Assembly: GCA_016649615.1 (NCBI GenBank)
Contig: JAENXK010000004.1
Location: forward strand, 1-45,407
Origin: Thermoleophilia bacterium
GTDB taxonomy: Bacteria > Actinomycetota > Thermoleophilia > Solirubrobacterales > 70-9
Reading direction: 5' to 3'
Length of the DNA: 45,407 nt
Positions 5,945 through 39,324 of this stretch are shown piece after piece. The notes beneath the pieces were generated by a model. It was not told the origin of the DNA and did no database searches. It worked only from the letters and a program-made list of their open reading frames with translations. The first letter of the stretch is position 1. Every line of letters starts with the position of its first letter. The position numbers and the translations under genes were made by a program.

Positions 5945-7339
5945 TCAGGCGGTTGAGGTGACGTCGCGGGCGAACGCTTCGAATGCCTCGAGGTAATTCT
6001 CCAGATCCTGGTCCGAGTGGGCGATCGAAAGCGTCCACTCCTCTTCCACTCCGGGGGTCATGAAGATGCCGTGATTCATGTGGTAAAGCCAGGCCAGGGT
6101 CGAGAGCTCCTCGTTCACCTTGGTCAGATAGTCACGGTATTCGTAGAGCCGCTCGGGCGAGAAGACCACGCAACCCTTGCAGCCCATCCCCTCGGTGTAG
6201 GCCGGAAGGCCGTAGCGGTCGATGATCTCCTGACAGCCGTCGAGCAGCTTCCTGTTCTTGGCTTCGAGCTCGGCATAGGCCTCATCGGTCAGCACGTCGA
6301 GCAGGGTGGCCTCGGCGGCCGCCATCACCAGCGGGTTGCCGTTGAAGGTCCCGTACTGCTTGACGTCGTCTGCCTCGATCAGGTCGGCCAGTTCCCGGGT
6401 CATCCCGATCGCGCCTCCCGGGTAACCGCCGCAGGTGGCCTTGGCCAGGGTGATCATGTCGGGAATCACTCCGAAGCGGGCGGTGGCTCCGCCGGCCGAG
6501 ATCGTCGCCCCGGTCTTGACTTCGTCAAAGATCAGCTTGATTCCGTACTGCTCGGTCAATTCACGGACCCGCTCGAGGTAGCCCTCCTTCGGCGGGATGA
6601 TGTTGATGTTCATCATCGAAGGCTCCATGATCAGCCCGGCGACCTGGTCACCGATCTTCTCGAAAACGCTTGCGAGCGCATCGGCGTCATTGAAGGGGAC
6701 CGCCCGGGTGAGTTCGTTCATGGCGTCGGGCGTGCCTTTGCCTTCCGGCACGCTGACCGGGTCATCACGGTCGCCGAGCGCTTCGAGCGGTGGGTAGACC
6801 GAGACCATCACCGAGTCGTGGTGGCCGTGGTAGGACCCCTCGATTTTCAGCAGGATGTCGCGCCCGGTGGCACCCCGGGCGAGGTGAACCGCGTCCATGG
6901 TCGACTCGGTGCCGGAGTTGGTGAAGCGCCACTGGGGAAGGCCGAAACGCCTGGAAAGCTCCCTGGCGACCGTGATCGATCCCTCGGTCGGGGCGGCAAA
7001 GTGGGTGCCTTCGTCGATACGTGCCTTGACCGCCTCGCCGACGATCGGGTTCGCGTGTCCGATCGCCATGACGCCGAAGCCGTTGTGAAAGTCGGTGTAC
7101 TCGTTGCCATCGACGTCCCAGACCTGCGAGCCCACTCCGCGATCGAGATATACCGGCCACGGCTCGTTCACCTGGAAAGACGAAGGGACCCCGCCCGGCA
7201 TGAACTCCTCCGCCCGCTGGAAGGTCTCGGCCGACTTGCCGGTCCGGTTGCGAAAGGTCTCCTGCTGCTGTTCGGTCAATGCGGCGATCCGTTTGGGGTC
7301 GAACGGTGTGGGCTCGCCGCCAGTGCTCTCTTCAGTCAT
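5945..7339 (-). CDS. Class-III aminotransferase, glutamate-1-semialdehyde aminomutase-like
   Basis: This is a PLP-dependent enzyme of 464 residues. Visible landmarks include [21 protein letters not shown], the cofactor-phosphate region [34 protein letters not shown] and the Schiff-base lysine in [12 protein letters not shown]. It resembles the HemL-type subgroup, but several positions differ from true HemL (LAKATCGG rather than the usual LGKxIGGG) and no haem genes are nearby. It could act on a beta- or omega-amino acid or amino-acyl-CoA. It is the last gene of the operon with the AMP-forming ligase (gap 35 bases), ferredoxin and two-subunit CoA ligase, so its product may be a carboxylic acid that is then activated with CoA. 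A GGAGGA ribosome site precedes the ATG. Confidence 0.75.
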
Positions 7340-7374
7340 CGTTCCTCCGGTTGGTGATCTCGATTCCGGCCAGA

Positions 7375-8862
7375 CTACTCTTCCCGCGCCCGGAGTTCGG
7401 CCCTCTTGATCTTGCCGCTGGACGTCTTCGGCAACTCGTGGACGAACTCGATCAGCCGCGGGTACTTGTAGGGGGCGGTCGCCTCCCTGCAGTGCTGCTG
7501 AAGCTCGCCGATCAGCGGATCATCCGAGCGTCGGTTACCGGGGTCCGCTCCGGCGTCACGGTCAGCTTCGGCGCGCAGGACGACCACGGCCTTGACGACC
7601 GTCCCCCGCTCGGGATCGGGCGCGGCGATCACGGCGGCTTCGGCGACCGCCGGATGGGTGAGCAGCACCGATTCGACTTCGACCGGGCCGATCCGGTAGC
7701 CCGCCGATGAGATCAAGTCGTCGTTTCTGCCCTGGTGAAAAAGAAAACCGTCGCTGTCGGCCGTGACCAGATCACCGGTCGGCCACCACTCTTCACTGAA
7801 CGAGGTGCCGTCGAGATACCTGGAAAAGAAGGTGGGGGAGGTGCTCACCCTCACCTGGAGTTCTTCGTCAGCTATCCGGGTCTCTATCCCCGGCAGCGGA
7901 CGGCCCATCGAACCCTCTCTTCCTTCCAGCTGGTCTCCGGGTCGGATCCCGGTCACAGCGCCGGTTTCGGTCTGTCCGTAACCATCGGCGATCTCGAGAC
8001 CGGTCGTCTTGCGGAAGGCGTCGATCACCTCGGGGTTCAGCGACTCGCCGGCCGAGACCATCCGCCTGACCGATGGCATCGGGGAAAGCTCGGTCCTGCG
8101 AGCCAGGATCCGGAACTCGGTCGGCGCCTGGCAGAGCACGTTGACCCCCTGATCACGCACGATGTCGAGCCGGGTCGCCGGGTCGAAACGCTCGTCGACC
8201 AGAAGTGATTTGGCCCCCGTCAGCCAGGGGGCGATGAACGAATTGCGGGACGACTTGGACCATCCGGGGGCGGCGGTGCACCAGGCCAACTCCCCGGGCC
8301 GGGCTCCCAGCCAGTGCTCGGCCTGAGTCTTCTGGCCGAACAGGTAACGCTGCGAATGGACCACACCTTTCGGATCGCCGGTCGACCCGGAAGTGAAGAC
8401 GATCAGGGCGGGGTCACCGGGATCGAGCTTTGCGCTGGCCGCGGGGGTGGCCTGGGACCGATCTTCGTCGAAGATCCGCTCGAGGTCGTCCATGTCCAGG
8501 TAAGGAACGCCGTCGGGAAGGTCGGCCAGGTGGCGGGCCTCTCCGATCGCAAGAGCCGGGTCCGTTGCTGCCGCCCGCTTGGCGAGGTCCGCCGCAGTGA
8601 GCTGGGTATTGCAGGGCAGGGCGATCGCTCCCATGCGGAAGCAGGCCAGCATCGCGATCACCCACTCGATCCGGCTGCCGGTCAGAAGCATCACCACGTC
8701 GCCCCGCCGCACCCCGTTGGCCATCATCGCCCCGGACAGCCCGAGGCTCCGGGTGAACAGATGGCTGAAGTAGTGGACCTCCCTTTCGCCTCCGGCATCA
8801 ACCGTGATGACCGCCTCCTGCGAGAAAGGAAACCTCTGTATTACGTCTTCAATGAAGTTCAT
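7375..8862 (-). CDS. AMP-forming acyl-CoA synthetase (ANL superfamily)
   Basis: It would activate a carboxylate to its CoA thioester via an acyl-adenylate. The 495 residues contain the P-loop-like [11 protein letters not shown], the A5 motif YGQTETG, the hinge region [19 protein letters not shown] and the C-terminal catalytic lysine in [11 protein letters not shown]. This layout is closest to medium-chain/AcsM-like and short-chain ligases; the acyl substrate is not predictable. It follows the ferredoxin gene by 43 bases and precedes the aminotransferase. A TAAGAT box lies 8 bases upstream of the ATG, so an internal leaderless-type promoter is possible. Confidence 0.85.
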
Positions 8863-8905
8863 CGACCCGGATCTTAGGCTGAGACCGGAGCCGGAGCGGA
8901 GGCTG

Positions 8906-9142
8906 CTACTGCTCGTAGAGTTTGATGATCCTGATCGAGCCGGCCGGGGCGGTCTCGATGCAGAGGTTGCAGAGTACGCATTCGTCCAGGGCCGGCACCT
9001 GGATCTCGGTGCCGGCTTCGGTCGCCTTGAAGATGCCGACCGGGCAGACTTCTTCCAGTTCTGTGGCGAGCTTGATGTCCGACTTTGCCGGTTCGTCGAT
9101 CTCGACGTCGATGAAGACCTTGTTCAGGGTTTCGGAGCTCAT
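8906..9142 (-). CDS. Small single-cluster ferredoxin, FixX-like
   Basis: A 78-residue protein has four cysteines: C33 in EVCPVGIF and C55, C58, C61 in ECVLCNLC. This is the arrangement of one [4Fe-4S] cluster in FixX-like and RNA-polymerase-D-like ferredoxin domains. The position where a second cluster would need a Cys reads IETAPAG. The ATG overlaps the TGA of the preceding SucD-like gene (ATGA), so synthesis is probably coupled to that CoA-ligase subunit. A role as electron carrier or as a structural subunit of the ligase is possible; neither can be decided from sequence. A longer reading upstream would overlap the previous gene and is rejected. Confidence 0.8.
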   Translation of the reverse strand: MSSETLNKVFIDVEIDEPAKSDIKLATELEEVCPVGIFKATEAGTEIQVPALDECVLCNLCIETAPAGSIRIIKLYEQ

Positions 9143-10050
9143 TTTGCGATCTTCTCCTTGACTGCGTCTGGAATCTCGTCGATTCGCTCCACCACGGTGA
9201 TCCCGGCCGCCTGGAGGCGGGCGATCTTCTCGGTGGCAGAATCCTCTTTGCCTTCGACGATCGTGCCGGCGTGGCCGAAGCTCATGCCCTGCATCTCGTC
9301 CTCGTCCATGAACTTGCCGGCCATGAAAGCGACGATCGGCAGCCGGGAGTTGTTCTCCTGGACCCACTCCGACAGCTGGGCCTCCATGCGGCCACCGGGC
9401 TCGGTGTAGATCACGATCGCTTCCGTCTGCTCGTCGGCCTCGAAGTAGGGCATCAATTCAGCGTAGGTCGAGCCGATGATTGCGTCGCCGCCGATCGAGA
9501 TCGCGGTCGAGACGCCCAGCCCGGCCGCGGTCAGCGACGACGAGATCTCGGTGGTCATGCCCCCGGACCGGGACATGACGCCGATAACCCCGGGCTCGTA
9601 CGACTTTGCAGCGTCTTTGGCCGGGCCGCCGATGCCACCCATCTTGCAGACCTCGGGGACGATCAGTCCGAGGCAGTTGGGCCCGATGATCCGGGCGCCC
9701 CGCAGGTCAGCCAGTTCGACCATCTGGGCGACGTCTCCGCGCGGGATGCGCTCGGTGACGATCACGATCAGCTTGATCCCGTTCTCGATCGCCTCCAGAA
9801 CGGCATCCTTGGTGAAGCCGGGGGGAACCGTCACGACCGAGCCGTCGATCGGGCCACCGTGGTTTTCGACGGCCTGGGCGACCGTGTCGAATACCGGGAC
9901 CCCGTGGACTTCGCGGCCCTTGCGGCCGGGAGTGACTCCGCCGACGATCTTCGAGCCGTAGTCGAGACACTCGCGGGTCAGGTTGATCGCTTCGCGCCCG
10001 GTTATGCCCTGGACGATGAAGGTCGTGTCCCGGTTGAGAAGGACGCTCAT
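9139..10050 (-). CDS. Divergent succinyl-CoA synthetase alpha-like subunit, ATP-citrate-lyase/citryl-CoA-synthetase flavoured
   Basis: The 303-residue protein has the SucD layout: a CoA-binding Rossmann domain (VQGITGREA, GGVTPGRKG), GPNCLG, and the phospho-histidine loop FGHAGTI near the C-terminus. Canonical SucD has SRSGTLTYE, a KxGxxPGH segment and MGHAGAI. Here the sequence reads SRSGGMTTE, has CKMGGIGG instead of the PGH segment, and has FGHAG. These variants recall ATP-citrate lyase and citryl-CoA synthetase, as I remember those families. The substrate is therefore open: succinate, malate, citrate or another acid. It overlaps both neighbours by 4 bases (ATGA). Confidence 0.8.
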   Translation of the reverse strand: MSVLLNRDTTFIVQGITGREAINLTRECLDYGSKIVGGVTPGRKGREVHGVPVFDTVAQAVENHGGPIDGSVVTVPPGFTKDAVLEAIENGIKLIVIVTERIPRGDVAQMVELADLRGARIIGPNCLGLIVPEVCKMGGIGGPAKDAAKSYEPGVIGVMSRSGGMTTEISSSLTAAGLGVSTAISIGGDAIIGSTYAELMPYFEADEQTEAIVIYTEPGGRMEAQLSEWVQENNSRLPIVAFMAGKFMDEDEMQGMSFGHAGTIVEGKEDSATEKIARLQAAGITVVERIDEIPDAVKEKIAK

Positions 10051-11264
10051 GCTGCCTCCCCCTGGATCTTGGCAACCGCCCGGCCGGCGGCATCCCAGAG
10101 GGAGACCGACCGGTCGCAGTACTCGACTCCATACTTGTCGAGGATCTCGAAGCCTTCGTCTTCCCAGGCCCCCGGGATGCGGAAGATCGCGATCGTCTCG
10201 GCCGGATCAAGGCCCAGTTCGAGGCAGGCCTTGATCACGCCCCGGGCGACGATGTCGACCCGGGTGTTCGAGACGATCGACATCATCACCGCGATCTTCT
10301 CGACGCCGTCTTTCTGAAGAACCTCTTTGGCCAGGCCACAGGCCTTTGCCACCGAGGGGTTGCCGCCGATCTCGGAATAGTTTGCCGGCCTGCCGCCCTG
10401 GTTGCGGACCGCGTCGGTCAAAGTGAGCGAGCCGCCGCCGGCTCCGATCACCAGGCCGAGATCGCCTTTGAATCCGTGGTCCTTGCCCTGGATCACGCCG
10501 CGATGGTCGGCGCCGTCGATCGCCTTCACGTTGCGCTCGAAATCGCTCGGCTCATAGTTGTCGCGGGTGTCGTCCTCGGCGATCTTCAGCTCTTTTCGCA
10601 GCAGCTGCTTCTGACGCCCGATCGCCTCTTCTTCCATGTCCATGTGGGCATCGAGGGCGACGAATGATCCGTCGTTCAGCTCGGCCAGCGGGTTGATCTC
10701 GGCCAGGGTCATGTCGTACTTGAGGAAGAGCCGGGCCAGGCGGGCCAGGATCGGGGTCGCCCGGTTGAGCTGGCTGCCGGTGACGCCTGTGGCGGCGATC
10801 ACCTGTTTTGCCTCGAAGTCGAAAACCGGGAGCAGATTCGAGATGTGGGCGCGGCCGACGTAGTCTGGATGTTCTTCGGCGACTTCTTCGATATCGATCC
10901 CGCCCATGTAGCTGAACAGCATCAGGGGCTTCTTGGCGGTGCCGTCCCAGACGACCGAGACGTAGTACTCGCGCTTGACTTCGGCTTTCGGATCGACCAG
11001 GACGCCACGCGGCATCAGGCCGTTGATCTCCAGATCAAGGATCGTGGCGGCGTGGTCCGCGGCCTCGTCGGGGGTATCGGCGAACTGAACGCCACCGGCC
11101 TTCATCCGGCCGCCGCTCAATACCTGGGATTTGATCACGACCGGGCCGTCGATCTCCTCGGCGACCTCGCGTGCTTCGTCAGCTGTCTGGCAGAAGCCGT
11201 ACTTGGTGACCGGGATCCCGGCCAACTCGACGATCTTTCTGGCCTCGTATTCGTAGAAGCGCAT
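10047..11264 (-). CDS. Divergent succinyl-CoA synthetase beta-like (ATP-grasp) subunit
   Basis: The 405 residues start with the SucC-type N-terminus (MRFYEYEARKIVELAGIPV). The ATP-grasp domain follows, with VIKSQVLSGGRMKAGGV and AEINPLAEL, and a C-terminal CoA-ligase domain. In that domain canonical SucC has FLDVGGGA and NIFGGI. This protein has ANYSEIGGNPS and SIVSNTRVD, closer to the ANYGEYSG-type segment I recall from ATP-citrate lyase. Together with the SucD-like partner (4-base overlap) it should form an NTP-dependent CoA ligase with an intermediate phospho-histidine. It is the first gene of the operon; the start is the ATG at 11264. Calling it plain succinyl-CoA synthetase is the conservative alternative. 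Confidence 0.8.
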   Translation of the reverse strand: MRFYEYEARKIVELAGIPVTKYGFCQTADEAREVAEEIDGPVVIKSQVLSGGRMKAGGVQFADTPDEAADHAATILDLEINGLMPRGVLVDPKAEVKREYYVSVVWDGTAKKPLMLFSYMGGIDIEEVAEEHPDYVGRAHISNLLPVFDFEAKQVIAATGVTGSQLNRATPILARLARLFLKYDMTLAEINPLAELNDGSFVALDAHMDMEEEAIGRQKQLLRKELKIAEDDTRDNYEPSDFERNVKAIDGADHRGVIQGKDHGFKGDLGLVIGAGGGSLTLTDAVRNQGGRPANYSEIGGNPSVAKACGLAKEVLQKDGVEKIAVMMSIVSNTRVDIVARGVIKACLELGLDPAETIAIFRIPGAWEDEGFEILDKYGVEYCDRSVSLWDAAGRAVAKIQGEAA

Positions 11265-11802: not shown

Positions 11803-13611
11803 GTGAGTGAGACCACCGAGGTATCCGCGCCGACCGACAACGCCAGGCTTCTCGCCTGGGTGGATGAAGTCGCCGAACTGACCCAGCCAGACTCGATCCA
11901 CTGGTGCGACGGTTCGGCCGAAGAGTACAACCGGCTCGCCGAGGGACTCGTCGAGGCCGGGACCTTCGAGCGGCTCGACCAGGCCAAGCGACCGAACTCA
12001 TACCTCGCCTCATCCGACCCGGCCGACGTGGCCCGGGTCGAAGACCGCACCTTCATCTGCTCCGCTCAGGAAGAGGACGCCGGTCCGACCAACAACTGGA
12101 AAGGCCCGGAGGAGATGCGGGGGATTCTGAATCCGCTGTTCAAGGGCTCGATGAAGGGCCGGACCATGTATGTGGTGCCTTTCTCGATGGGCCCGCTCGG
12201 CTCGCCGATCGCTCACATCGGGGTTCAGCTGACCGATTCGGCCTACGTCGCGACTTCGATGCGGATCATGACCAGGATGGGCGCCGGCGCGCTGGACGCT
12301 CTCGGCTCGGACGGCTTCTTCGTGCCCTGCGTCCACTCGGTCGGCATGCCGCTCGACGAGGGTCAGGACGACGTTGCCTGGCCCTGCAACGCCGACAACA
12401 AGTACATCGTGCATTTCCCCGAGAGTCGCGAGATCTGGTCATTCGGGTCCGGGTACGGCGGCAACGCCCTGCTCGGCAAGAAGTGCTTTGCGCTGAGGAT
12501 CGCCTCGGTAATGGCGCGCGACGAGGGCTGGATGGCCGAACACATGCTGATCATCAAGGTGACCAATCCCGAGGGTGAGGTCAAGTACATGACCGGCGCT
12601 TTTCCTTCGATGTGCGGCAAGACCAACCTGGCGATGCTGGCCCCCAGCATTCCCGGCTGGACGGTCGAGACGATCGGCGACGACATCGCCTGGATGAAGT
12701 TCGATGACGACGGCAGGCTGCGGGCGGTCAATCCCGAGGCCGGATTCTTCGGGGTGGCCCCCGGAACGGGCGAGGAGACCAACCACAACGCGATGGAGAC
12801 GATCGGATCGAACACGATCTTCACCAATACCGCCAGGACAGATGACGGCGACGTCTGGTGGGAGGGCAAGAGCAAGGAGGTGCCCGGGCACCTGATCGAC
12901 TGGCAGGGCAACGACTGGACCCCGGATTCAGACCAGCCCTCATCGCACCCGAATGCCCGCTTCACCGCTCCGGCCTGCCAGAGCCCGAGCATCGCTTCCG
13001 AGTGGGAGGACTCGGCCGGAGTTCCGATCGATGCCTTCCTCTTCGGCGGCCGGCGCGCCACGGTCATTCCGCTGGTGACCGAGGCTTTCGACTGGAACCA
13101 CGGCGTGTTCCTCGGCGCGACCATGTCTTCGGAGACGACCGCGGCCGCGGCCGGCGCGGTCGGTGAGCTGCGCTTTGATCCGATGGCGATGCTGCCGTTC
13201 TGCGGGTACAACATGGCCGAATACTTCGGCCACTGGCTGAATATAGGTCAGCGCGAAGGGGCAGTGTTGCCGAAGATCTTCTACGTCAACTGGTTCCGCA
13301 AGGACCCCACCGGGAACTTCATCTGGCCGGGCTTCAATGACAACAGCCGCGTGCTCGAGTGGATTTTCAAACGCTGTGACGGGGAAGGGGAGACCTTCGA
13401 GACCGTGCTCGGCCTGCTGCCTTCGATCGGCGACCTCAACCTGGAGGGAATTGACATTTCGGCCGAGGCACTCGACGAGATCCTGACCGTTGACGACGAC
13501 GCGGTCAGAAGGCAGTTGCCGCAGACCGAAGGGCACCTGGCCAAGTTCGGCGATTCGCTTCCTGAAGGGATCACCGAGCAGCTGGAGGCCCTGAAAGAGC
13601 GTCTGGCCTGA
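11803..13611 (+). CDS. pckG: Phosphoenolpyruvate carboxykinase, GTP type
   Basis: It interconverts oxaloacetate + GTP and phosphoenolpyruvate + CO2 + GDP, the entry to gluconeogenesis. The 602 residues match the usual family length. Visible features are FVPCVHSVG, the nucleotide-binding [13 protein letters not shown] at about residue 265-277 (the hyper-reactive Cys of the GTP-type enzymes), the metal region [11 protein letters not shown], and [17 protein letters not shown]. The start is GTG with an AAAGGAG ribosome site; a TATCGT -10-like box at 11766-11771 gives a short leader. With the ethylmalonyl-CoA genes downstream it fits growth on C2 compounds or fatty acids. The next gene begins 16 bases after its stop. 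Confidence 0.95.
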
Positions 13612-17147: not shown

Positions 17148-18167
17148 CTACATCCCGTACTGCTCGGCCAGCTCGGGGTCCTTGGCGGCCAGCATCTCGG
17201 CCAGCTCGACCATCACCTTGCACTGCTTCCAGGTGGCGTCGTCCTGCATCTTGCCGTCGATCATGTGGACTCCGCGACCGTCGGGGATCGCCTCGATCAC
17301 CTTCCTGGCGAAGATGACTTCGTCTGCCGGGGGAGAGAAGACCTTCTTGGCGATCTTGATCTGGACCGGGTGAAGTGACCAGGCGCCGACGCAGCCGAGC
17401 AGAAAGGCGGCGCGGAACTGCGTCTCACAGCCCTCGACGTCCTTGATGTCGCCGAACGGGCCATAGAAGGGCAGGATGTCGTTCGCGGCGCAGGCGTCGA
17501 CCATGCGGGCGATCGAGTAGTGCCAGGGATCCTGCTGGGCAGTCACGCGGGCGGCCTCGAGATCGTCGAGGTCCGGGTCTTCCATCGATCGATAGCCGGG
17601 GTGACCGCCGCCGACTCTCGTGGTCTTCATCCGGCGCGAGGCGGCCAGGTCGGCCGGGCCGAAGCTCATGCCCTGCATGCGCGAGCTGGCCGCGGCGATC
17701 TCTTCCAGGTTGGTCACGCCCTGGGCGGTCTCGAGGATCGCGTGGACCAGGATCGGCCGCTCGACCGAAGCCTTGGCTTCGAGCTGGGCCAGCAGCTGGT
17801 CGATGTAGTGGATGTCCCAGGGACCCTCGACCTTGGGCACCATGATCACGTCGATCCTGTCGCCGACCTCGGTGACCAGGGTGGTCAGATCGTCGAGGAC
17901 CCAGGGGCTCTCGAGCGAGTTGATCCTCGTCCAGAGCTGGGTGTCGCCGAGGTCGGCTTCTTTGGCGACTTTGACCAGGCCGGCCCGCGCGGCCTCCTTG
18001 TTGTCGACCGGGACCGCGTCTTCGAGGTTTCCGAGCAGGATGTCGGCCTGCTTGGCCATGTCGGGCACTTTGGCCGCCATCTTCTCGTTCGAGGCGTCGA
18101 AGAAGTGGATCATCCGTGAAGGCCCGAACGGGATCTCGGTTACCGGATCCGGGGCGCCGATGGCCAT
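17148..18167 (-). CDS. mcl: L-malyl-CoA / beta-methylmalyl-CoA lyase (HpcH/CitE family)
   Basis: It cleaves beta-methylmalyl-CoA to glyoxylate and propionyl-CoA, and condenses glyoxylate with acetyl-CoA to malyl-CoA, in the ethylmalonyl-CoA pathway. The 339 residues align by eye with Rhodobacter Mcl1. Shared blocks are [33 protein letters not shown], the metal ligands Glu in ILETAQGV and Asp in [24 protein letters not shown] and [11 protein letters not shown]. The start is the ATG at 18167, which keeps about 18 residues before the first conserved block as in Mcl1. An alternative ATG is at 18113. It is divergent from the GNAT-mcd unit and has its own TATAAA promoter. Confidence 0.88.
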
Positions 18168-18270
18168 GGGCTGGAAAAAGTTCCTCGGGTTTCGCAAGCT
18201 GCTCCTTCGATTCGTTTGGAAAGACCGCCGACCGTGCGGCGAGTGTCGCCGGACTACGCGACGGTCCCAA

Positions 18271-18806: not shown

Positions 18807-18871
18807 TCAGTTTCTTGCGCGTTCGCCGACCGGGCGAGCCTCCATTTCCCCAGACCCTTCAAAGAGGAGCC

Positions 18872-20080
18872 ATGTCCCAAGCGAGCTACCAGGAGATGAC
18901 CGAGGACCAGAAGGCCATTATCGAGATGGTCCGTCAGTTCGTCGACGAGCAGATACTTCCCAACGCCGAAGAGTATGACCACGAGGACAAGTTCCCGGAG
19001 CCGATCGTCGAGCAGATGAAAGAACTCGGCCTCTTCGGGGTGACGGTTCCCGAGGAGTACGGCGGCATGGGGCTGGACCTGACCACCTACGCGATGATCG
19101 TCGAGGAACTCTCCCGCGGCTGGATCTCGATCTCGGGCGTGGTCAACACCCACTTCATCGGTTCCTACCTGCTGATGAAGTTCGGCACCGACGAACAGAA
19201 GCAGACCTTTCTCCCGAAGATGGCGACCGGCGAGATGCGGGCGGCCTTTTCGCTCTCCGAACCGGAAACCGGCTCTGACGTCCAGGCCATCAAGGCGAGC
19301 GCCAGGAAGGACGACGACGGCATGTGGGAGATCAACGGCCAGAAGATGTGGGTGACGAACGGCCTCGGCTCCAGCCTCGTGTTCGTCCTCGTCAAAAACG
19401 ACGCCGACGCCGACCCGCCTTACAAGGGCATGACCTGCTTCATCACAGAGAAGGAACCGTGGGTCGAGACCAATACCGGCGACTTCGCCGGACTGGTCGT
19501 GCCACCCAAGATCAAGAAGATGGGCTACAAAGGGGTCGAATCGACCGAGCTGGTCTACGACGGCTACCGCTGCCCGCCGGACCGTATCCTCGGTGGCGAG
19601 GAGGACGGTCTCGGGAAAGGTTTCACCCAGATGATGGACGCGCTCGAGGTCGGCCGCGTGAACGTCGCCGCCCGCGGCGTCGGGATCGCCCAGCGGGCCC
19701 TCGAGCTCGCTCTCCGCTACAGCCAAGAGCGCAAGACGTTCGGCAAGCCGATCGCCCAGCACCAGGCGATCCAGTTCAAGCTTGCCGACATGGCGACCAA
19801 GATCGAGGCCGCCCGTCTGGTGACCCGCAAGGCCTGCCGGATGAAAGATGCCGGCGAGCGCTCCGATCTCGAGGCCGGCATGGCCAAGCTGATCGCATCC
19901 GAGACCGGCAAGGAGTGCGTCGAAGACTGCTTCCGGATCCACGGTGGCTACGGCTACTCGAAGGAATACGAGATCGAGCGCCTTTACCGCGATGCCCCGC
20001 TGCTTCTGATCGGCGAAGGGACGTCGGAGATTCAGCGCATGGTGATCGGCAAGAAGCTGCTTCAGCGCCACAAGATCTGA
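18872..20080 (+). CDS. mcd: Acyl-CoA dehydrogenase, probable methylsuccinyl-CoA dehydrogenase
   Basis: This is a flavoprotein of 402 residues. It has the acyl-CoA dehydrogenase blocks FSLSEPETGSD, KMWVTNG, RVNVAARGVGIAQRAL, RKTFGKPIAQHQAIQF, IHGGYGYSKEYEIERLYRDAP and the catalytic-base region GEGTSEIQR. On sequence alone it could be a short-chain dehydrogenase. The position between mcl and the MaoC hydratase makes oxidation of methylsuccinyl-CoA to mesaconyl-CoA the likeliest job. It has the ordinary length and lacks the long N-terminal extension of proteobacterial Mcd. The ATG at 18872 has an AGAGGAG ribosome site; upstream starts would run into the GNAT gene. Confidence 0.85.
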   Translation: MSQASYQEMTEDQKAIIEMVRQFVDEQILPNAEEYDHEDKFPEPIVEQMKELGLFGVTVPEEYGGMGLDLTTYAMIVEELSRGWISISGVVNTHFIGSYLLMKFGTDEQKQTFLPKMATGEMRAAFSLSEPETGSDVQAIKASARKDDDGMWEINGQKMWVTNGLGSSLVFVLVKNDADADPPYKGMTCFITEKEPWVETNTGDFAGLVVPPKIKKMGYKGVESTELVYDGYRCPPDRILGGEEDGLGKGFTQMMDALEVGRVNVAARGVGIAQRALELALRYSQERKTFGKPIAQHQAIQFKLADMATKIEAARLVTRKACRMKDAGERSDLEAGMAKLIASETGKECVEDCFRIHGGYGYSKEYEIERLYRDAPLLLIGEGTSEIQRMVIGKKLLQRHKI

Positions 20081-20573: not shown

Positions 20574-20939
20574 ATGGCATCAACTGCACAGCTGATCGAG
20601 CAGGCCGTCACGCACCTGCAGGAGGAGGTTCCGGCCCTCAAGAAGCTGAAGCTGGTCTTCGGGCTGGATCTCAGGGCCAAGGGAGACACGCAGACCTACC
20701 GGGTCGAGGTTCCCGGTCCTGAAGTGAGCAAGGGACGAGGAGAGGATGAACGCTGCCGGATCGAGATCGACCGGGCACAGTTCAACCAGTTGGCCGACGA
20801 AAAGAGCACCGTCGGGTCGTACCGGCGCGCCGCGGAGACGGGCCATATCCGCTTCGACGGTGATCCGAACGTCGCCAAGCTGATCATCAGGGTCTTCGAG
20901 ACCCATGAGCAGCGGGCCAAAGTAAAAAAGGTCCATTGA
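20574..20939 (+). CDS. Small SCP2-like protein
   Basis: The 121 residues have a pattern resembling sterol-carrier-protein-2-like domains: an acidic/basic beta half ending in the helix and turn SYRRAAETGHIRFDGDPNVAKLI, where GxIxxxGDxxxxxKL is typical. These proteins bind lipids or acyl groups non-covalently. It lies 54 bases before the MaoC hydratase in the acyl-CoA gene island, so a ligand-carrier role would fit, but this is inference. A TAGACA box ends 6 bases before the ATG. Confidence 0.55.
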   Translation: MASTAQLIEQAVTHLQEEVPALKKLKLVFGLDLRAKGDTQTYRVEVPGPEVSKGRGEDERCRIEIDRAQFNQLADEKSTVGSYRRAAETGHIRFDGDPNVAKLIIRVFETHEQRAKVKKVH

Positions 20940-20993: not shown

Positions 20994-21539
20994 ATGAGTG
21001 AAGAGTCAACCAGCGAGTTCACGACCGACCAGGCCGAGCGCGAAGCGACCGGGGCCCATTCCTACGGCCGCTATCTCGAGGAATTCGAGGTGGGAGCCAC
21101 CTACAAGCACTGGCCCGCCAAGACGGTCACCGAGAGCGACGACCACCTTTTCTGCCTGATAACCATGAATCACCATCCGCTGCACCTGAACGACGTGTAC
21201 GCGGCCGAATCGCAGCAGAAGCAGAACGTCGTGGTCGGCCCGCTGGTCTACTCGCTGGCCCTGGGCATGTCGGTTTCAGACGTTTCAGGCAAAGCGATCG
21301 CCAACCTGGCGACCGAGGAGCTGAGCCACCCGAATCCGGTCTTCCATGGCGACACCCTGTTCTGCGAGTCCGAGGTCCTCGACGTCCGTCCCTCGAAGTC
21401 GAAGCCCGACCGCGGCATCGTCAAGGTTCATACGCGTGTCCTGAACCAGGACGGCGTCCTGGTCGCCGAGTTCAAGCGAACGGTGCTGATCCCGCGCAAG
21501 GAGCATGGCGCGGCTCACACCGAAGGCAACGTCGAGTAG
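20994..21539 (+). CDS. mch: MaoC-like hydratase, probable mesaconyl-CoA hydratase
   Basis: A hotdog-fold protein of 181 residues. Landmarks are GRYLEEFEVGATYKHWPAKT, TESDDHLFCLITMNHHPLHLN (the R-hydratase-like catalytic Asp/His region), VVGPLVYSLALGMSVSDVSG and NPVFHGDTLFCESEVL. It closely resembles, from memory, the short MaoC protein encoded next to ccr and meaA in Streptomyces, and is about half the length of proteobacterial Mch. It should hydrate mesaconyl-CoA to beta-methylmalyl-CoA, the substrate of the nearby mcl product. It follows the SCP2-like gene by 54 bases. Confidence 0.85.
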   Translation: MSEESTSEFTTDQAEREATGAHSYGRYLEEFEVGATYKHWPAKTVTESDDHLFCLITMNHHPLHLNDVYAAESQQKQNVVVGPLVYSLALGMSVSDVSGKAIANLATEELSHPNPVFHGDTLFCESEVLDVRPSKSKPDRGIVKVHTRVLNQDGVLVAEFKRTVLIPRKEHGAAHTEGNVE

Positions 21540-23453: not shown

Positions 23454-25451
23454 CTAGGCCCTGGCTCCGGCCGGCTCATGGCGCCGGGCGACCAGTTCGA
23501 CCATCTCGCCCATGATCTCGTTCATGTCGAAATCCTTTGGCGTATAGACCCCGGAGACCCCTTGGCGGAGTAGATCCCCGGCGTCTTCGGGCGGGATGAT
23601 CCCTCCGGCCACCACGGGAATTTCGAGCCCCTCCGCGGCCAATAGCCTGACCACTTCAGGAACCAGCTCCAAGTGGGATCCGGAGAGGATCGAAAGGCCG
23701 ACCAGGTCCACATCTTCCTGAAGCGCAGACTCGACGATCTGCTCCGGGGTCAGCCTGATTCCCTGGTAGACGACTTCCATGCCGACGTCCCTGGCTCGCA
23801 GCGCTATCTGCTCGGAGCCGTTGGAGTGACCGTCCAGCCCGGGCTTGCCGACCAGAATCCTGACCCTGTGGCCGATCTGCTCCGAGACCTGGTCCACCTG
23901 GGCCCTGGTCTCGGCCAGCACGTCCCGGTCCCCGGCCGGTGCGGCGCCACTCACCCCGGTCGGGCCGCGGTAGGCACCGAATACACCGCGAAGGGTCTCG
24001 GCCCACTCACCGGTGGTTGCACCGGCCTTTGCGGCCGCAATCGTGGCCGGCATGATGTTCTCCTCTTCTGCTTCGGCCACTCGTGCGACCTCTGCCAGCG
24101 CGGAGTCGACGGCGCTCTGGTCGCGATCGCGGCGCCAGGCCTCGAGAGCCTCGATCCGCTCGCGCTCGACCTCGGGATCCGGCTTCATTATGCCGCCGTC
24201 GACACCTTTGGTCAGGGGTGACTCTTCGGTCTCGACATAGCTGTTGAGGCCGACCACCTTCTGTTCGCCGTTCTCGATCCGGGCGAACCGTTCGCGGTGG
24301 GACTCGACCAGGCTGGCCTTCATGTAGGGGACCGCGGCGACGGCGCCTCCCTTTTCTGCGACGACGTCCATCTCCCTGTGGGCGCCGGTGGTGAATTCTT
24401 CAACCAGGCCCTCCATCACCTGCGAGCCCTCGAAGATGTCGGGGTACTCGAGCATGTCGGTCTCGTAGGCGAGAACCTGCTGGATCCTGAGACTCCACTG
24501 CTGATCCCAGGGGCGGGGGAGACCCATCGCCTCGTTCCAGGCGGGAAGCTGAAGCGCCCGGGCCCGGGCATCACGGGCAAGGGTCACGGCCAGTGCTTCA
24601 AGCACTATCCGCTGGACGTTGTTCTCCGGCTGGGCCTCGGTCAGGCCGAGCGAGTTGACCTGAACCCCGTAGCGGAAACGCAGCATCTTTTCGTCCGTGA
24701 CCCCGTAGCGTTCACGGCCGATTTCGGTCCAGATCCGGCCCATCGTCTTCAACTTGGCGATCTCCTCGATGAAGCGGATACCGGCGTTCACGAAGAAGGA
24801 AATCCGGCCGAAGACCTTGGGGAAGTCCTCGTCGGCCACCTGGCCCCGGGCCTTGACTTCGTCGAGCACGGCGACTGCGGTCGAGATCGAATAGGCGATC
24901 TCCTGGATCGGGGTGGCGCCGGCCTCCTGCAGGTGGTAGCTGCAGATGTTGACCGGATTCCAGCTCGGCACCTCGTTCACGGTAAAGGCGACCATGTCGG
25001 CGATCAGCCGCATCGAAGGCTCTGGCGGGAAAGCGTAGGTGCCACGCGAGAGGTACTCCTTGATGATGTCGTTCTGGGTCGTGCCCTTGAGCTCCGCCCG
25101 GTCTACGCCGGTCTCTTCGGCCGCGGCGACGTAGAGGCCGAGCATCCAGGCAGCGACCGCGTTGATCGTCATCGACGTATTCATCGTGCCCAGCGGGATC
25201 TGGTCCATCAGCGCCTCCATGTCGCCGAGGTGGGCCACCGAGACGCCGACCTTGCCGACCTCGCCGCGGGCGAGGATGTGATCGGGGTCATAGCCGGTCT
25301 GGGTAGGCAGATCGAAGGCGACCGAGAGCCCGGTCTGGCCTTTGGCAAGGTTGTTCCGGTACAGCTCGTTCGACCGGCGGGCATCGGAGTGGCCCGCGTA
25401 GGTGCGCATCACCCAGGGGCGGTCGCTTTCGGGCAGGCGGTGTTCGCTCAT
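23454..25451 (-). CDS. ecm: Ethylmalonyl-CoA mutase (MeaA-like)
   Basis: A coenzyme-B12-dependent mutase converting ethylmalonyl-CoA to methylsuccinyl-CoA. The 665 residues have an N-terminal TIM barrel with RPWVMRTYAGHSDARRSN, LSVAFDLPTQTGYDPDH and GTTQNDIIKEYLSRG. The DLPTQ-GYDPDH wording matches Ecm/MeaA rather than methylmalonyl-CoA mutase (DLATHRGYDSDH). A C-terminal B12 domain has the DxHxxG motif in GKPGLDGHSNG, followed by LSGSH and GGIIPPED. The ATG at 25451 is preferred over longer readings because the conserved region begins just after it. A TATCTT box 7 bases upstream suggests a leaderless mRNA. The vkor gene follows 24 bases after its stop. Confidence 0.92.
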   Translation of the reverse strand: MSEHRLPESDRPWVMRTYAGHSDARRSNELYRNNLAKGQTGLSVAFDLPTQTGYDPDHILARGEVGKVGVSVAHLGDMEALMDQIPLGTMNTSMTINAVAAWMLGLYVAAAEETGVDRAELKGTTQNDIIKEYLSRGTYAFPPEPSMRLIADMVAFTVNEVPSWNPVNICSYHLQEAGATPIQEIAYSISTAVAVLDEVKARGQVADEDFPKVFGRISFFVNAGIRFIEEIAKLKTMGRIWTEIGRERYGVTDEKMLRFRYGVQVNSLGLTEAQPENNVQRIVLEALAVTLARDARARALQLPAWNEAMGLPRPWDQQWSLRIQQVLAYETDMLEYPDIFEGSQVMEGLVEEFTTGAHREMDVVAEKGGAVAAVPYMKASLVESHRERFARIENGEQKVVGLNSYVETEESPLTKGVDGGIMKPDPEVERERIEALEAWRRDRDQSAVDSALAEVARVAEAEEENIMPATIAAAKAGATTGEWAETLRGVFGAYRGPTGVSGAAPAGDRDVLAETRAQVDQVSEQIGHRVRILVGKPGLDGHSNGSEQIALRARDVGMEVVYQGIRLTPEQIVESALQEDVDLVGLSILSGSHLELVPEVVRLLAAEGLEIPVVAGGIIPPEDAGDLLRQGVSGVYTPKDFDMNEIMGEMVELVARRHEPAGARA

Positions 25452-25458
25452 ACGACAG

Positions 25459-25464
25459 AAGATA
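25459..25464 (-). promoter_or_regulatory. -10 box TATCTT of ecm
   Basis: On the minus strand TATCTT ends 7 bases before the ecm ATG, and no ribosome site is visible. This is consistent with leaderless transcription of the key pathway gene. Confidence 0.5.
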
Positions 25465-25510
25465 CTGCGAACGTCGCCAATTACCCCCGGCCATGGGGTC
25501 AGCGATCCGC

Positions 25511-25544
25511 CGGGAGTCGCTGCCACCGCCCGGAAGTCACTGCC
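25511..25544. repeat. Short direct repeat in the ecm upstream region
   Basis: CGGGAGTCGCTGCC (25511-25524) and CGGAAGTCACTGCC (25531-25544) match at 12 of 14 positions with a 20-base period, close to two helical turns. They lie about 50-85 bases upstream of the ecm -10 box, where an activator could bind. The rest of the 274-base gap shows no gene. Confidence 0.35.
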
Positions 25545-25713
25545 GATTCCGTCCGGGCCCCGGCGCAACTCTGGTTGGCCTCTTCGGCCCGGTCTGCGGC
25601 CGAAACGGTCCCTGGACGGACTCCATTGCCGCCGCGGCCGAATCTGAAACGGGCCCGAGCGGCATTTTCCCGTTCTCGACCCGGGGCCGCACCCTTTCGG
25701 AGGTCGGTGTGTT

Positions 25714-26810: not shown

Positions 26811-28067
26811 TCAGGCGCCGACTTCGGCCCGGATCGCGCCCGGTCCCTCGGTCTCTCGCCCGTCGTCTTCGTCTTCGGCTCCGACCAGAATCGCAATCTT
26901 GCCGAGGTGCTGGTTCTCGTGAAGCATCTGGTGTGCTTCGGGGACCCCGTCGAACTCCATCGTCTTCCAGAGCACCGGCCGGATCTTGCCCTCGGCCATC
27001 AACTGGTTGGCCTTCATGCACTCGTAGGCATTGGCGAAGTGGGAACCGATGATCTGCTTCTGGCGCATCCAGAGGTACCGCACGTCGAAGTCGAGATTGT
27101 AGCCCGAGGTTGCGCCGCAGATCACTACTTTTCCGAACGGCTTGACCATGAACACCGAGGTCGGGAAGGTTGCCTGCCCGACATGCTCAAAGACCACATC
27201 CGGTGCGTCACCGAGGATCTCCTTGGCCCGCTTGGCGAATGCCCGCGACACCTTGAAACGCTCCTTTTCCTCTTCGGGCGTCTCGTTTCCGGTTCGCATC
27301 ATGCCCGAGAACTCGTTGCGGTTGATGTAGTCGACCGCGCCCAGCTTCTTGACCAGCTCGCCCTTTTCGTCGGAGGAGACCACTCCGACCGCGTTTGCCC
27401 CGGCCGCCTTGCAGAGCTGAACGGCGAACACGCCGAGCCCGCCGGCTGCGCCCCAGATCAGCACGTTGTGACCGGCCTGGATCCTGGCCTGGTCCATCAG
27501 CATCCGGTAGGCGGTGAAATAGGTCAGCCCGTAGGAAGACGCCTCGGCCCAGGAGAGGTTTCTGGGCCTGGGAAGCAGTTGCTGGGCCTGGACCTTGGTG
27601 AACTGGGCGAATGAGCCCCAGGTGGTCTCGTAGCCCCAGATCTTCTGACTGGGTGCCGCCATCGGGTCGAGGCCGTGGACTTCGACGTCCTCATACGAGG
27701 CCTGGTTGCAGTGGACCACGACCTCGTCACCGGGCTTCCATCTGGTCACACCGTCTCCGACCTTCCAGACGACGCCGGACGCGTCGGAGCCGCCGATGTG
27801 GTGTCCGTACTCGGGGTGATCGCCGTAACCGAAGACCGAAACCGGCTTGCCGAGAGCGGCCCAGACGTTGTTGAAATTGACCCCGGCGGCCATGACTCTG
27901 ACGATGACTTCGAAAGCGCCCGGTTCGGGGGTCTCGATTTCTTCGAGTTTGAAGGCCTCATTCGGCTCGCCCATCGTTTCGGGGCGGATAACCCAGGCAG
28001 CCATCTTCTCGGGGAGATCCCCCGGCTGCACATCGAGGCTGCTTACTTCAGCGAGGTCTACGGGCAC
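26811..28067 (-). CDS. ccr: Crotonyl-CoA carboxylase/reductase
   Basis: It reductively carboxylates crotonyl-CoA with NADPH and CO2 to ethylmalonyl-CoA, the hallmark step of the ethylmalonyl-CoA pathway. The 418 residues form a medium-chain dehydrogenase/reductase. Residues known to hold CO2 in this family can be located: Asn in GVNFNNVW (64/66), Tyr146-Glu147 in IWGYETTWGSFAQF and His343 in IIGSHFAN. The NADPH loop is WGAAGGLGVFA (about 206-215). These support true carboxylating activity rather than a plain enoyl reductase. The start is GTG at 28067 with a GAGAGGA ribosome site. It is followed by a small barrel-like gene. Confidence 0.92.
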   Translation of the reverse strand: MPVDLAEVSSLDVQPGDLPEKMAAWVIRPETMGEPNEAFKLEEIETPEPGAFEVIVRVMAAGVNFNNVWAALGKPVSVFGYGDHPEYGHHIGGSDASGVVWKVGDGVTRWKPGDEVVVHCNQASYEDVEVHGLDPMAAPSQKIWGYETTWGSFAQFTKVQAQQLLPRPRNLSWAEASSYGLTYFTAYRMLMDQARIQAGHNVLIWGAAGGLGVFAVQLCKAAGANAVGVVSSDEKGELVKKLGAVDYINRNEFSGMMRTGNETPEEEKERFKVSRAFAKRAKEILGDAPDVVFEHVGQATFPTSVFMVKPFGKVVICGATSGYNLDFDVRYLWMRQKQIIGSHFANAYECMKANQLMAEGKIRPVLWKTMEFDGVPEAHQMLHENQHLGKIAILVGAEDEDDGRETEGPGAIRAEVGA

Positions 28068-36920: not shown

Positions 36921-37682
36921 TCAGCGGAACAGATCCTCTGAACCGGATCTGATCTGCGCGCCACAACCGGGGCCGTCGTCTGCTCCCACATACCTGCCGA
37001 GTCCTCGAACCAGGGCTGCCGGGGTCCCGCTCGTCTTGTCACGGATCAGGTCGGCAGCCGCAGCGATTTCGTCGGCGATTCCGATCGAGGTCGCCTCCAG
37101 AACCGTGCCGGCACGATCTGTCCGGCCGCGCCAGTCGTCGAGCGGCCCGATCCCGGCCATGCCGATCGCTACTTCGACCTGACCCAGGCGCCAGGCGCGG
37201 CCGAAGCTGTCGGAGATTATTACCGCCGGTCTTGTTCCGGCTGCGGCCGTAATTTCGGCCCTGATGCGCCGGGCCGATCCGTCGGGGTCCTCCGGCAGAA
37301 GCGCCACGGTCCCGGGGTGGCGGAGGTTCGAGGCATCGATCCCGGCATTGGCGCAGACGAAGCCATGCCTGGTCTCGGTTATCAGGATGCCCCGCTCCGG
37401 ATCGGCCCGGACGATCCGCCGGCTCTCGCGCAGGATCAGCTCGACCAGCCGGGGATCGTGGTCCAGCTCCGCCCCCATTTTCTGCGCCACCGCCCCCGGC
37501 TCGACCGCCGAAAGGTCCACCAGGCGGTTTTCCGCCTTGGAGACGACCTTCTGGGAGATGACTATGACGTCTCCGTCGGCGATGTCGACCGAGCCGGCCA
37601 GAGCCGCTCCGAATTCGAACCCGGGAACGATCTCCGGCAGTCCGGGGACGGCCGTGACTGTGATCTCCCGGCCCTGTTCCAC
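36921..37682 (-). CDS. cofE: Coenzyme F420-0:L-glutamate ligase
   Basis: It adds the glutamate tail to F420-0 with GTP. The 253 residues show PGLPEIVPG, DGDVIVISQKVVSKAENR, ITETRHGFVCANAGIDASN, ISDSFGRAWRLGQ and ATSIGIADEIAAAADL, as in the ligase domain of FbiB. The protein ends at SEDLFR, exactly where the nitroreductase-like second half of mycobacterial FbiB would follow, so that half is absent here. The start chosen is GTG 37682, 4 bases after the cofC stop. An upstream GTG at 37724 would overlap cofC by 38 bases. It is the last gene of the npdG-cofD-cofC-cofE operon. Confidence 0.9.
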   Translation of the reverse strand: MEQGREITVTAVPGLPEIVPGFEFGAALAGSVDIADGDVIVISQKVVSKAENRLVDLSAVEPGAVAQKMGAELDHDPRLVELILRESRRIVRADPERGILITETRHGFVCANAGIDASNLRHPGTVALLPEDPDGSARRIRAEITAAAGTRPAVIISDSFGRAWRLGQVEVAIGMAGIGPLDDWRGRTDRAGTVLEATSIGIADEIAAAADLIRDKTSGTPAALVRGLGRYVGADDGPGCGAQIRSGSEDLFR

Positions 37683-37686
37683 CGGC

Positions 37687-39251: not shown

Positions 39252-39324
39252 GATCGGCGCGCCGGGGGAGGCGCGGTGCGCAGTTCTCCGAAGGCGGGAG
39301 CCCTCGGGGCTGCGGTTACAGGAC

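Follow-up and report, generated by a model that had tools for sequence, protein, structure and literature searches.

What does a SucC-like/SucD-like CoA ligase do when its genes are followed by that of a small ferredoxin? The question is raised by a locus of a Thermoleophilia bacterium in contig JAENXK010000004.1, analyzed over a stretch of 45,407 nucleotides, here called the window. A preliminary description had recorded five genes on one strand, the first three overlapping, and had proposed an operon for a new CoA-activating route. Five minus-strand reading frames were indeed found between 5945 and 11264, and the overlaps among the first three genes are four bases each. That description did not mention the malyl-CoA lyase (Mcl) gene, 6 kb upstream of the SucC-like/SucD-like/ferredoxin trio, or the ethylmalonyl-CoA-pathway-like cluster in the same window to which Mcl belongs (Table 1). 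Judged from this gene context, the SucC-like/SucD-like pair is probably an ADP-forming malate-CoA ligase of the citryl-CoA-synthetase type, which would keep the energy of malyl-CoA as ATP.

Genes of the locus

Table 1. Features of the window discussed in the text
Feature	Coordinates	Strand	Remarks
HemL-like class III aminotransferase	5945-7339	-	464 aa; adjoins the trio only in close relatives
AMP-forming acyl-CoA synthetase	7375-8862	-	495 aa; often, not always, 3' of the trio
One-cluster [4Fe-4S] ferredoxin	8906-9142	-	78 aa counted from ATG
SucD-like, CoA-binding small subunit with GHAG histidine	9139-10050	-	303 aa
SucC-like, ATP-grasp large subunit of proposed malate-CoA ligase	10047-11264	-	405 aa
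GTP-type PEP carboxykinase	11803-13611	+	neighbor in 13/20 order neighborhoods
Malyl-CoA lyase (Mcl), Chloroflexus type	17148-18197	-	same strand as trio, upstream
Acyl-CoA dehydrogenase, candidate methylsuccinyl-CoA dehydrogenase	18869-20080	+	substrate inferred; start set by homology
SCP2-like small protein	20574-20939	+	recurs across neighborhoods
MaoC hydratase, candidate mesaconyl-CoA hydratase	20994-21539	+	half-size; under NCBIfam cut-offs
B12-dependent acyl-CoA mutase, candidate ethylmalonyl-CoA mutase	23454-25568	-	name inferred from proximity to Ccr
Crotonyl-CoA carboxylase/reductase (Ccr)	26811-28067	-	TIGR01751, 505.6 bits vs cut-off 378.55

The acyl-CoA dehydrogenase has FadE3 as its best solved match (402 bits), with 6es9 at 291 bits. 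The mutase frame opens at the first TTG, and the real start is probably further in.

As to the supposed five-gene operon, the trio is conserved but the last two genes are not part of a fixed unit. Among 20 neighborhoods of the order (Solirubrobacterales), a homolog of the AMP-forming ligase is present in 12, at varying distance, and one of the HemL-like aminotransferase in two, the window counted. A scan of genome contigs with the ferredoxin gave ten loci, all close relatives judged by identity or name; in these loci, picked by ferredoxin similarity, the AMP-forming ligase is found in 10/10 and the aminotransferase in 1/10. The route from amino acid to acid to acyl-CoA suggested earlier was rejected because the aminotransferase does not accompany the trio consistently, and the context instead suggests malyl-CoA metabolism. 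The aminotransferase is probably outside the system.

Relationship to known CoA ligases

The motifs reported in the preliminary description (SRSGGMTTE and FGHAGTI in the SucD-like protein, ANYSEIGGNPS in the SucC-like one) were found in the translations, and the SucD-like protein lacks the PGH segment seen in the comparison SucD rows. SGGMTTE and EPGG in the SucD-like subunit, and DHRG, GGNP and NTR[VI]D in the SucC-like subunit, occur in 25/25 clade members and in 0/17 comparison sequences per subunit; these diagnostic motifs are therefore not chance. GGG[AGS]S was tried as a further diagnostic motif and occurs in only 5/25 clade members. The GHAG histidine and EINP glutamate motifs shared with SucCD are kept in 25/25, whereas the NIF[GA]GI loop of 15/17 other SucC sequences is found in 0/25. 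The three large-subunit motifs are also present in the large subunit of citryl-CoA synthetase (CCS, CcsAB), 6hxq_B (1/1).

In plain pairwise comparison, succinyl-CoA synthetases score top for both subunits, best solved matches included, and against the SucD-like query they outscore the small subunit of CCS. SucC and SucD are also the best-scoring curated models, though the pair misses their cut-offs: TIGR01016 gives 233.2 bits (cut-off 375.55), TIGR01019 280 (353.2), NF001913 240 (370) and NF004230 282.4 (336). The malate-CoA ligase model NF010647 gives 175.9 bits, under its cut-off of 604. An AlphaFold model of the SucC-like subunit, built on a seven-row alignment, has a mean pLDDT of 54.7 and carries no weight here.

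In the trees, both subunits form their own clade, separate from canonical SucCD and from MtkAB. AU tests, whose groups were defined after an earlier tree had been inspected, rejected placing the new sequences in one clade with the canonical SucC of relatives (p 0.008) or with MtkAB (p 0.003). CCS, represented by its large subunit only, is sister to the clade in the first SucC tree (98/100, SH-aLRT/bootstrap; one partial CCS row). In the second, which omits 12/20 order rows, it is again sister (94/90, bootstrap/SH-aLRT; one partial CCS row), with the node not starred and with a long-branch warning. The placement of CCS is unsure because its branch is very long. The SucC set omits the E. coli L135 SucC, which is split into two frames. 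A second SucD of about 40% identity is present in 58/61 genomes of the order, and the eight placed in trees are canonical.

Plain SucCD membership is rejected on curated-model scores and tree, despite the top pairwise scores, and MtkAB membership on model score and tree. The earlier view that the pair lies outside ordinary succinyl-CoA synthetases agrees with its separate clade and different loops. A separate canonical sucCD exists in relatives, but none was seen in the window's own MAG (~90% complete). Of the suggested citryl-CoA-synthetase or ATP-citrate-lyase flavor, the former persists in the large-subunit loop motifs, while ATP-citrate lyase (AclAB) is rejected on domain content and scores. 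The 303-aa SucD-like subunit has no fused citrate-synthase-like domain, and the pair matches PF16114 at 19.9 bits (cut-off 26.8) and PF24948 at 28.8 (cut-off 83). SRSGGM presumably also occurs in the ATP-citrate lyase small subunit, a family with no row in the alignment.

Malyl-CoA lyase as probable partner of the trio

The window Mcl aligns with its closest solved relative, MCLC (4l7z), at 511 bits, and the MCLC residues Arg92, Glu157, Asp184 and Asp318 are all conserved (4/4). It was found that, among the 61 order genomes, the SucD-like gene is present in 55, Mcl in 52 and both in 48; co-occurrence alone is uninformative in these relatives because both genes are nearly universal there. A single contig carries both genes in 35 of these 48 genomes, with Mcl upstream of the SucD-like gene on the same strand in 35/35, within 5 kb in 23/35 and within 2.5 kb in 13/35. 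In the window, the gap between them is 7 kb, with other genes in between.

Ccr is present in 55/61 order genomes, malate synthase (PF01274) in 13/61 and isocitrate lyase (PF00463) in 5/61. With Ccr in most of the order and malate synthase mostly absent, glyoxylate has to be consumed. A clear malate synthase (>300 bits) was found in 11/61 genomes, and ten of these 11 also carry the SucD-like gene, so the step sometimes has a backup. Ccr is missing from two genomes (G038, G041) that carry both Mcl and the SucD-like gene; the unit is therefore not bound to the ethylmalonyl-CoA pathway.

Among the 55 genomes that carry the SucD-like gene, seven (G008, G011, G013, G017, G032, G034, G059), 73-94% complete, have no Mcl match. 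The SucD-like gene is itself absent from six of the 61. In two of these the absence was traced to contig ends: in G019 contig L120 terminates in a SucC-like fragment, and in G052 contig L119 stops just past Mcl. G030 is 54% complete, G043 (99% complete) and G048 have neither the SucD-like gene nor Mcl, and G058 has Mcl and lacks both the SucD-like and the thioesterase-type genes.

Exchange with a thioesterase-type gene

The distribution data cover one phylum, as a 396-genome sample and the 61 order genomes. A strong Mcl match (E <= 1e-150) was obtained in 49 genomes of the sample; the SucD-like and thioesterase-type genes were called at E <= 1e-65 and E <= 1e-45. Inside the order, 12/13 strong-Mcl genomes carry the SucD-like gene and 0/13 the thioesterase-type gene; outside the order, the corresponding counts are 0/36 and 33/36. 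No genome in the sample has both. In the 33 outside genomes, this CitE paralog is the next gene after Mcl, on the same strand and at 2-149 nt (aligned spans). At the MCLC Asp318 position, the residue is Glu in 33/33 paralogs and Asp in 37/37 Mcl copies, and Glu here marks the malyl-CoA-thioesterase group according to a passage of PMC3832036.

The best match to the thioesterase-type gene in the 61 order genomes, in G019, has 39% identity (E 1.1e-47), and of the 15 order matches at E <= 1e-20, 13 have Asp and two are unscorable. Neither partner gene accompanies Mcl in three outside genomes, all of a single genus, and the thioesterase-type gene also occurs in four genomes (G155, G344, G425, G432) in which this Mcl finds no match at E <= 1e-50. 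The exchange of Mcl partners may represent just one or two evolutionary events.

Proposed function and alternatives

In the ethylmalonyl-CoA pathway, glyoxylate is converted to malate through malyl-CoA and a thioesterase or by malate synthase, as given in parts of PMC2948502 and PMC8307300. In the proposed mechanism, Mcl would condense acetyl-CoA with glyoxylate from this pathway into (S)-malyl-CoA, and the pair would then convert malyl-CoA, ADP and Pi into malate, CoA and ATP. Catalysis would proceed via a small-subunit phosphohistidine and the large-subunit ATP-grasp site. Mcl and the pair would together substitute for malate synthase and recoup the thioester energy, which would be lost with the CitE paralog in other actinobacteria. 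The pair would share with (3S)-malyl-CoA thioesterase a position after Mcl and malate as product, but it belongs to an unrelated protein family, and hydrolysis does not conserve the thioester energy.

Malyl-CoA, citramalyl-CoA and citryl-CoA have a common 3-carboxy-3-hydroxypropionyl-CoA core and undergo the same retro-Claisen cleavage, which would account for a citryl-CoA-synthetase-like site acting on malyl-CoA. Also in favor of the proposal, the trio lies next to C-C lyase genes of other kinds in two further lineages, and a C-C lyase gene was found near canonical SucCD in 0/8 loci. Canonical succinate-CoA ligases reportedly form malyl-CoA in vitro, so another enzyme could perform the step.

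The same enzymes might run in the opposite direction, with malate and ATP giving malyl-CoA and Mcl yielding acetyl-CoA and glyoxylate, as with MtkAB in the serine cycle. We regard this as unlikely, if the strongest of the alternatives. MtkAB works toward malyl-CoA (in a passage of PMC2948502). MtkAB-type genes of Ruegeria and Paracoccus adjoin serine-cycle genes and a malyl-CoA-lyase-like CoA ester lyase, a partnership that resembles ours. The ten genomes with both malate synthase and the SucD-like gene, and the two with Mcl and no Ccr, also suit this direction. However, the trio fills the slot of a thioesterase-type gene whose action goes only toward malate, and Ccr is common in an order where 48/61 genomes have no PF01274 malate synthase. 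MtkAB differs further in its family branch and in the absence of the CCS-type motifs, and neither of the two loci shows an adjacent ferredoxin gene. A somewhat smaller chance is given to another 2-hydroxydicarboxylate as natural substrate, for example (S)-citramalate or 3-methylmalate; citramalyl-CoA would then be split into acetyl-CoA and pyruvate. MCLC cleaves (S)-citramalyl-CoA too (in the portion of PMC3832036 used here), and two lineages besides the order have the trio next to C-C lyase genes other than Mcl. In family f31, the neighbors are glutamate mutase, methylaspartate ammonia-lyase and a citryl-CoA-lyase-like gene; in family f7, they are TRAP transporter genes and a CitE-like lyase, with an MmgE/PrpD protein in 1/2 loci. 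Both families include genomes with the trio and without an Mcl match. Within the order, the thioesterase-type gene replaced by the trio nevertheless indicates malyl-CoA, and substrates of the one clade may differ among lineages.

Activation of citrate for cleavage, as by citryl-CoA synthetase, appears improbable. That enzyme likewise has two subunits and acts together with a C-C lyase. The shared large-subunit motifs and the tentative sister position of CCS speak for this reading, as does the gene above the NCBIfam citryl-CoA lyase cut-offs next to the trio in 3/3 f31 loci. However, the neighboring lyase of the order is Mcl, and a homolog of the f31 lyase was not found in the 20 order neighborhoods (E <= 1e-15); the long CCS branch and the lower score of its small subunit argue in the same direction. 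The trio also differs from CcsAB by its attached ferredoxin gene. The least probable reading, to which very little weight is given, is a second succinyl-CoA synthetase, perhaps coupled by ferredoxin to 2-oxoglutarate:ferredoxin oxidoreductase. It would suit the top family scores, a ferredoxin partner and the window's MAG, where no canonical SucD was seen; moreover, a Sulfurovum plasmid has canonical sucCD near genes for a 4Fe-4S protein and 2-oxoglutarate synthase. The missed SucC and SucD cut-offs, the missing NIF[GA]GI loop and the coexisting canonical-type SucD in 58/61 genomes argue against it.

If the malate-CoA ligase assignment is true, this would be a third, ATP-conserving route from glyoxylate to malate, its SucD-like gene present in 55/61 genomes, and would shift the energy balance of acetate assimilation. 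Citryl-CoA-synthetase-type binding sites would extend to smaller hydroxyacids, and a new malyl-CoA ligase would be available to synthetic pathways. One such pathway employs Mtk, according to an excerpt of PMC9889269.

Ferredoxin and the trio as a possible ligase class

The earlier pairing of the ferredoxin with a CoA ligase holds well beyond the window, where the two genes overlap by four bases: the ferredoxin gene adjoins the SucD-like gene in 25/25 neighborhoods. All 25 ferredoxins have four cysteines for one [4Fe-4S] cluster, as one upstream Cys and CxxCxxC, a layout that we take to be of the FixX/ETF-QO type. The window protein has no Pfam match and only weak NCBIfam ferredoxin matches. 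Its presence is constant, and the proposed chemistry has no electron-requiring step; it may form a complex with the pair, perhaps as an accessory or redox-sensing subunit.

More tentatively, the trio could represent a CoA ligase class not described before, with three components including the ferredoxin, that serves at least three kinds of 3-carboxy-3-hydroxyacyl-CoA lyases (Mcl, CitE-like and citryl-CoA-lyase-like). In Solirubrobacterales-like actinobacteria it would act within the ethylmalonyl-CoA pathway as an ATP-yielding malate-synthase substitute. The ferredoxin would then be a true redox-sensing or electron-transferring subunit, tying acetate assimilation to redox state. Searches of the open-licence PMC literature turned up no such system. 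A plasmid search with the SucD-like protein returned 109 records, every one below 60% identity.

The ligase unit and its conservation

As judged from sequence, the SucC-like and SucD-like proteins of the window most likely form a citryl-CoA-synthetase-type ligase for malate and malyl-CoA, coupled to malyl-CoA lyase (Mcl) and a ferredoxin. The five minus-strand frames put forward as an operon in the preliminary description are all present, and the first three (the trio of SucC-like, SucD-like and ferredoxin genes) overlap by four bases. Scores of the ligase pair fall well short of the curated cut-offs for SucC and SucD, and very far short of that of the malate--CoA ligase beta model. Ranked by plain sequence score, solved succinyl-CoA synthetase chains nevertheless come first for both subunits, with SucD-like giving 224 bits to 1oi7_A vs 192 to the citryl-CoA synthetase small subunit, and SucC-like giving 178 bits to 3ufx_B, 138 to the E. 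coli chain and 136 to the large subunit of citryl-CoA synthetase.

Features of the window and of two related loci (positions are those of the window unless a locus is named)
Feature	Positions	Strand	Remarks
SucC-like subunit	10047-11264	-	Pfam ATP-grasp_2
SucD-like subunit	9139-10050	-	Pfam CoA_binding, Ligase_CoA
Ferredoxin	8906-9142	-	78 aa; no family match in Pfam
AMP ligase (fourth gene)	7375-8862	-	Pfam AMP-binding
HemL-like aminotransferase (fifth gene)	5945-7339	-	Pfam Aminotran_3
Mcl	17148-18197	- (as trio)	349 aa; six kilobases upstream of trio; 511 bits to 4l7z
MaoC hydratase	20994-21539
F420-biosynthesis-like frames (by eye)	33588-35885 and 36921-39374
Methylaspartate-pathway genes beside trio and citryl-CoA-lyase-like gene, locus L073	4973-12998
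TRAP transporter, trio and lyase row, locus L109	2534-13694	one strand

Conservation was followed in an order sample of 61 genomes, the window's MAG and 60 relatives, with "order" meaning kinship as given by the genome search; the ten loci found by ferredoxin include several Solirubrobacterales. A close SucD-like homologue (81-95% identity to that of the window) occurs in 55 of the 61, counting partial hits in G001 and G017. A second SucD of about 40% identity was found in 58, three of them partial hits, the exceptions being G000, G036 and G050; the eight second copies placed in trees are canonical. Neighbourhoods were compared for 20 order genomes (window included), three genomes of f31, a different family within the phylum, and two of f7, a different family within the class. 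The ferredoxin gene directly follows the SucD-like gene in 25/25, a pairing that is partly by choice for f31, whose genomes were first found by ferredoxin search, the others having been picked by the SucD-like gene. Among the 20 order neighbourhoods (E <= 1e-15, window counted), Mcl and the MaoC hydratase each occur in at least 16, PEP carboxykinase in at least 13, the AMP ligase homologue in at least 12 and the HemL-like aminotransferase in at least two; these are lower bounds, since lengths vary and some contigs end early.

Phylogeny and motifs of the two subunits

The new sequences form a single clade in the tree of each subunit, with SH-aLRT/bootstrap support of 90.7/97 for SucC and 97.9/100 for SucD. 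In a mixture-model SucC tree of 31 rows, with 12 of the 20 order rows left out and the f31 rows flagged by the program for unusual composition, support for the clade was 100/98. Approximately unbiased (AU) tests on this tree, for groups named only after the first tree was seen, rejected grouping the new sequences with canonical SucC of the relatives (p 0.008) and with the two MtkA-type rows (p 0.003). The citryl-CoA synthetase large subunit was the sister of the new clade (94/90), on a very long branch for which the program warned that long branches meet. The motifs DHRG, GGNP and NTR[VI]D are found in 25/25 new SucC-like proteins and in citryl-CoA synthetase, and in 0/17 others. The citryl-CoA flavour ascribed to the pair from the sequence is sound for the large subunit, the one for which the alignment included a citryl-CoA synthetase row. 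SGGMTTE and EPGG are carried by 25/25 new SucD-like proteins and 0/17 others, and GHAG by all SucD-type proteins compared.

Malyl-CoA lyase and the ethylmalonyl-CoA pathway

The Mcl of the window, unmentioned in the preliminary description, keeps all four named active-site residues of the Chloroflexus aurantiacus enzyme (4l7z). The window also encodes crotonyl-CoA carboxylase/reductase (Ccr; 505.6 bits vs a cut-off of 378.55), a B12 acyl-CoA mutase, an acyl-CoA dehydrogenase and the MaoC hydratase, none of the last three above an NCBIfam equivalog cut-off. Taken together, these genes resemble the ethylmalonyl-CoA pathway, with context as the basis for the roles given to the candidate mutase, dehydrogenase and hydratase. 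The hydratase is half as large as the solved beta-methylmalyl-CoA dehydratase (8hgn), so that a one-domain mesaconyl-CoA hydratase may operate.

Mcl was found in 52 of the 61 order genomes and Ccr in 55 (53 above cut-off), PF01274 malate synthase in 13 (two weak or broken) and PF00463 isocitrate lyase in five (two convincing). Mcl and the SucD-like gene occur together in 48 genomes, on one contig in 35 and on separate contigs in 13; of the two genes, seven genomes carry only the SucD-like one and four only Mcl. Where they share a contig, Mcl is always upstream and in the same orientation (35/35), within 5 kb in 23 and within 2.5 kb in 13. Genomes G038 and G041, noted together with locus L059, have Mcl, the SucD-like gene and malate synthase, and Ccr was not found in them, so the Mcl-ligase unit can exist apart from the ethylmalonyl-CoA pathway.

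Exchange of the ligase with a thioesterase-type gene

In a phylum sample of 396 genomes, 63 match Mcl at E <= 1e-50. Strong matches (E <= 1e-150) occur in 49, of which 13 belong to the order and 36 do not; the remaining 14 (37-41% identity) were set aside. A CitE-like paralogue lies downstream of Mcl in 33 of the 36 outside genomes, on the same strand at 2-149 nt by aligned spans. At the position of Asp318 of the Chloroflexus lyase, these paralogues have Glu (33/33) and the Mcl copies Asp (37/37). According to PMC3832036, the group of the R. sphaeroides malyl-CoA thioesterase is the only one with Glu in place of this Asp.

The SucD-like gene was found in none of the 36 outside genomes (E <= 1e-65), and in 12 of the 13 order genomes with strong Mcl; in the thirteenth, G052, the contig ends right after Mcl. 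Conversely, the thioesterase-type gene was found in none of these 13 (E <= 1e-45). Its best match in the 61 order genomes has 39% identity and E 1.1e-47 (G019, outside the phylum sample), and identity is at least 51% in the 37 carriers of the phylum sample. Fifteen matches at E <= 1e-20 in the 61 genomes have Asp in 13 cases, with two not scorable. Exceptions are three genomes of one genus outside the order (G218, G301, G312; loci L178, L174, L170) and G058 of the order, with Mcl and neither gene, and four genomes (G155, G344, G425, G432) with the thioesterase-type gene and no match to this Mcl. G058 (L118) is the sole order genome with Mcl surroundings intact yet the trio missing, and has a CitE paralogue with lyase-type Asp about 5 kb downstream of Mcl. 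The mutual exclusion may reflect only one or two evolutionary events.

The trio beside other C-C lyases

A citryl-CoA-lyase homologue adjoins the trio in 3/3 f31 loci, which belong to small-genome actinobacteria. In L073 it scores above two NCBIfam citryl-CoA-lyase cut-offs, among others, and methylaspartate mutase S, GlmL, mutase E and methylaspartate ammonia-lyase are each above cut-off. The gene row of L111 is like that of L073 by eye, and L072 ends within the mutase S gene. A variant glutamate fermentation through citramalyl-CoA is possible for this row. In both f7 loci (L109, L110), the trio has TRAP transporter genes on one side and a CitE-like lyase carrying the lyase-type Asp on the other; the contig of L109 extends further, to genes for an MmgE/PrpD protein and a fumarate-reductase-like flavoprotein. 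The genes of these loci form a row on one strand, possibly a catabolic operon for a C4/C5 hydroxydicarboxylate. No Mcl match was found in the five f31 and f7 genomes, and none of the three lyases near any of eight canonical SucCD loci from the order. The contexts in the order, f31 and f7 point to one ligase-ferredoxin unit common to three kinds of C-C lyase.

Proposed reaction and role of the ferredoxin

Malyl-, citramalyl- and citryl-CoA have a common 3-carboxy-3-hydroxypropionyl-CoA core, and their cleavage gives acetyl-CoA and glyoxylate, pyruvate or oxaloacetate, respectively. The direction toward malate is favored because the ligase is swapped with a hydrolase-type gene and malate synthase is rare. 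Counterevidence comes from ten genomes in which malate synthase accompanies the SucD-like gene, and from two that combine the SucD-like gene with Mcl and have no Ccr. In M. extorquens on acetate, Mcl and thioesterase make up the apparent malate synthase (PMC2948502), and malyl-CoA is hydrolysed in R. sphaeroides (PMC8307300). In the place of the thioesterase, a ligase would conserve the energy of the thioester as ATP, and by free energies the overall reaction would remain slightly favorable. Full-text searches of open-licence papers brought up no description of a ligase-Mcl-ferredoxin system.

All four one-cluster cysteines are kept in 25/25 ferredoxins. Those of the second cluster are 4/4 in the three f31 proteins, 2/4 in the two f7 proteins and absent from the 20 order proteins. 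Electrons are needed by nothing in the proposed reaction. A putative accessory or sensing role is suggested by the strict pairing with the SucD-like gene, by the overlap of the two genes in the window, and by the retention of one cluster where the second has been lost.

Elsewhere in the window, the frames resembling coenzyme F420 biosynthesis genes comprise, by eye, a fused CofG/CofH-like radical SAM protein and CofD/CofE-like genes.
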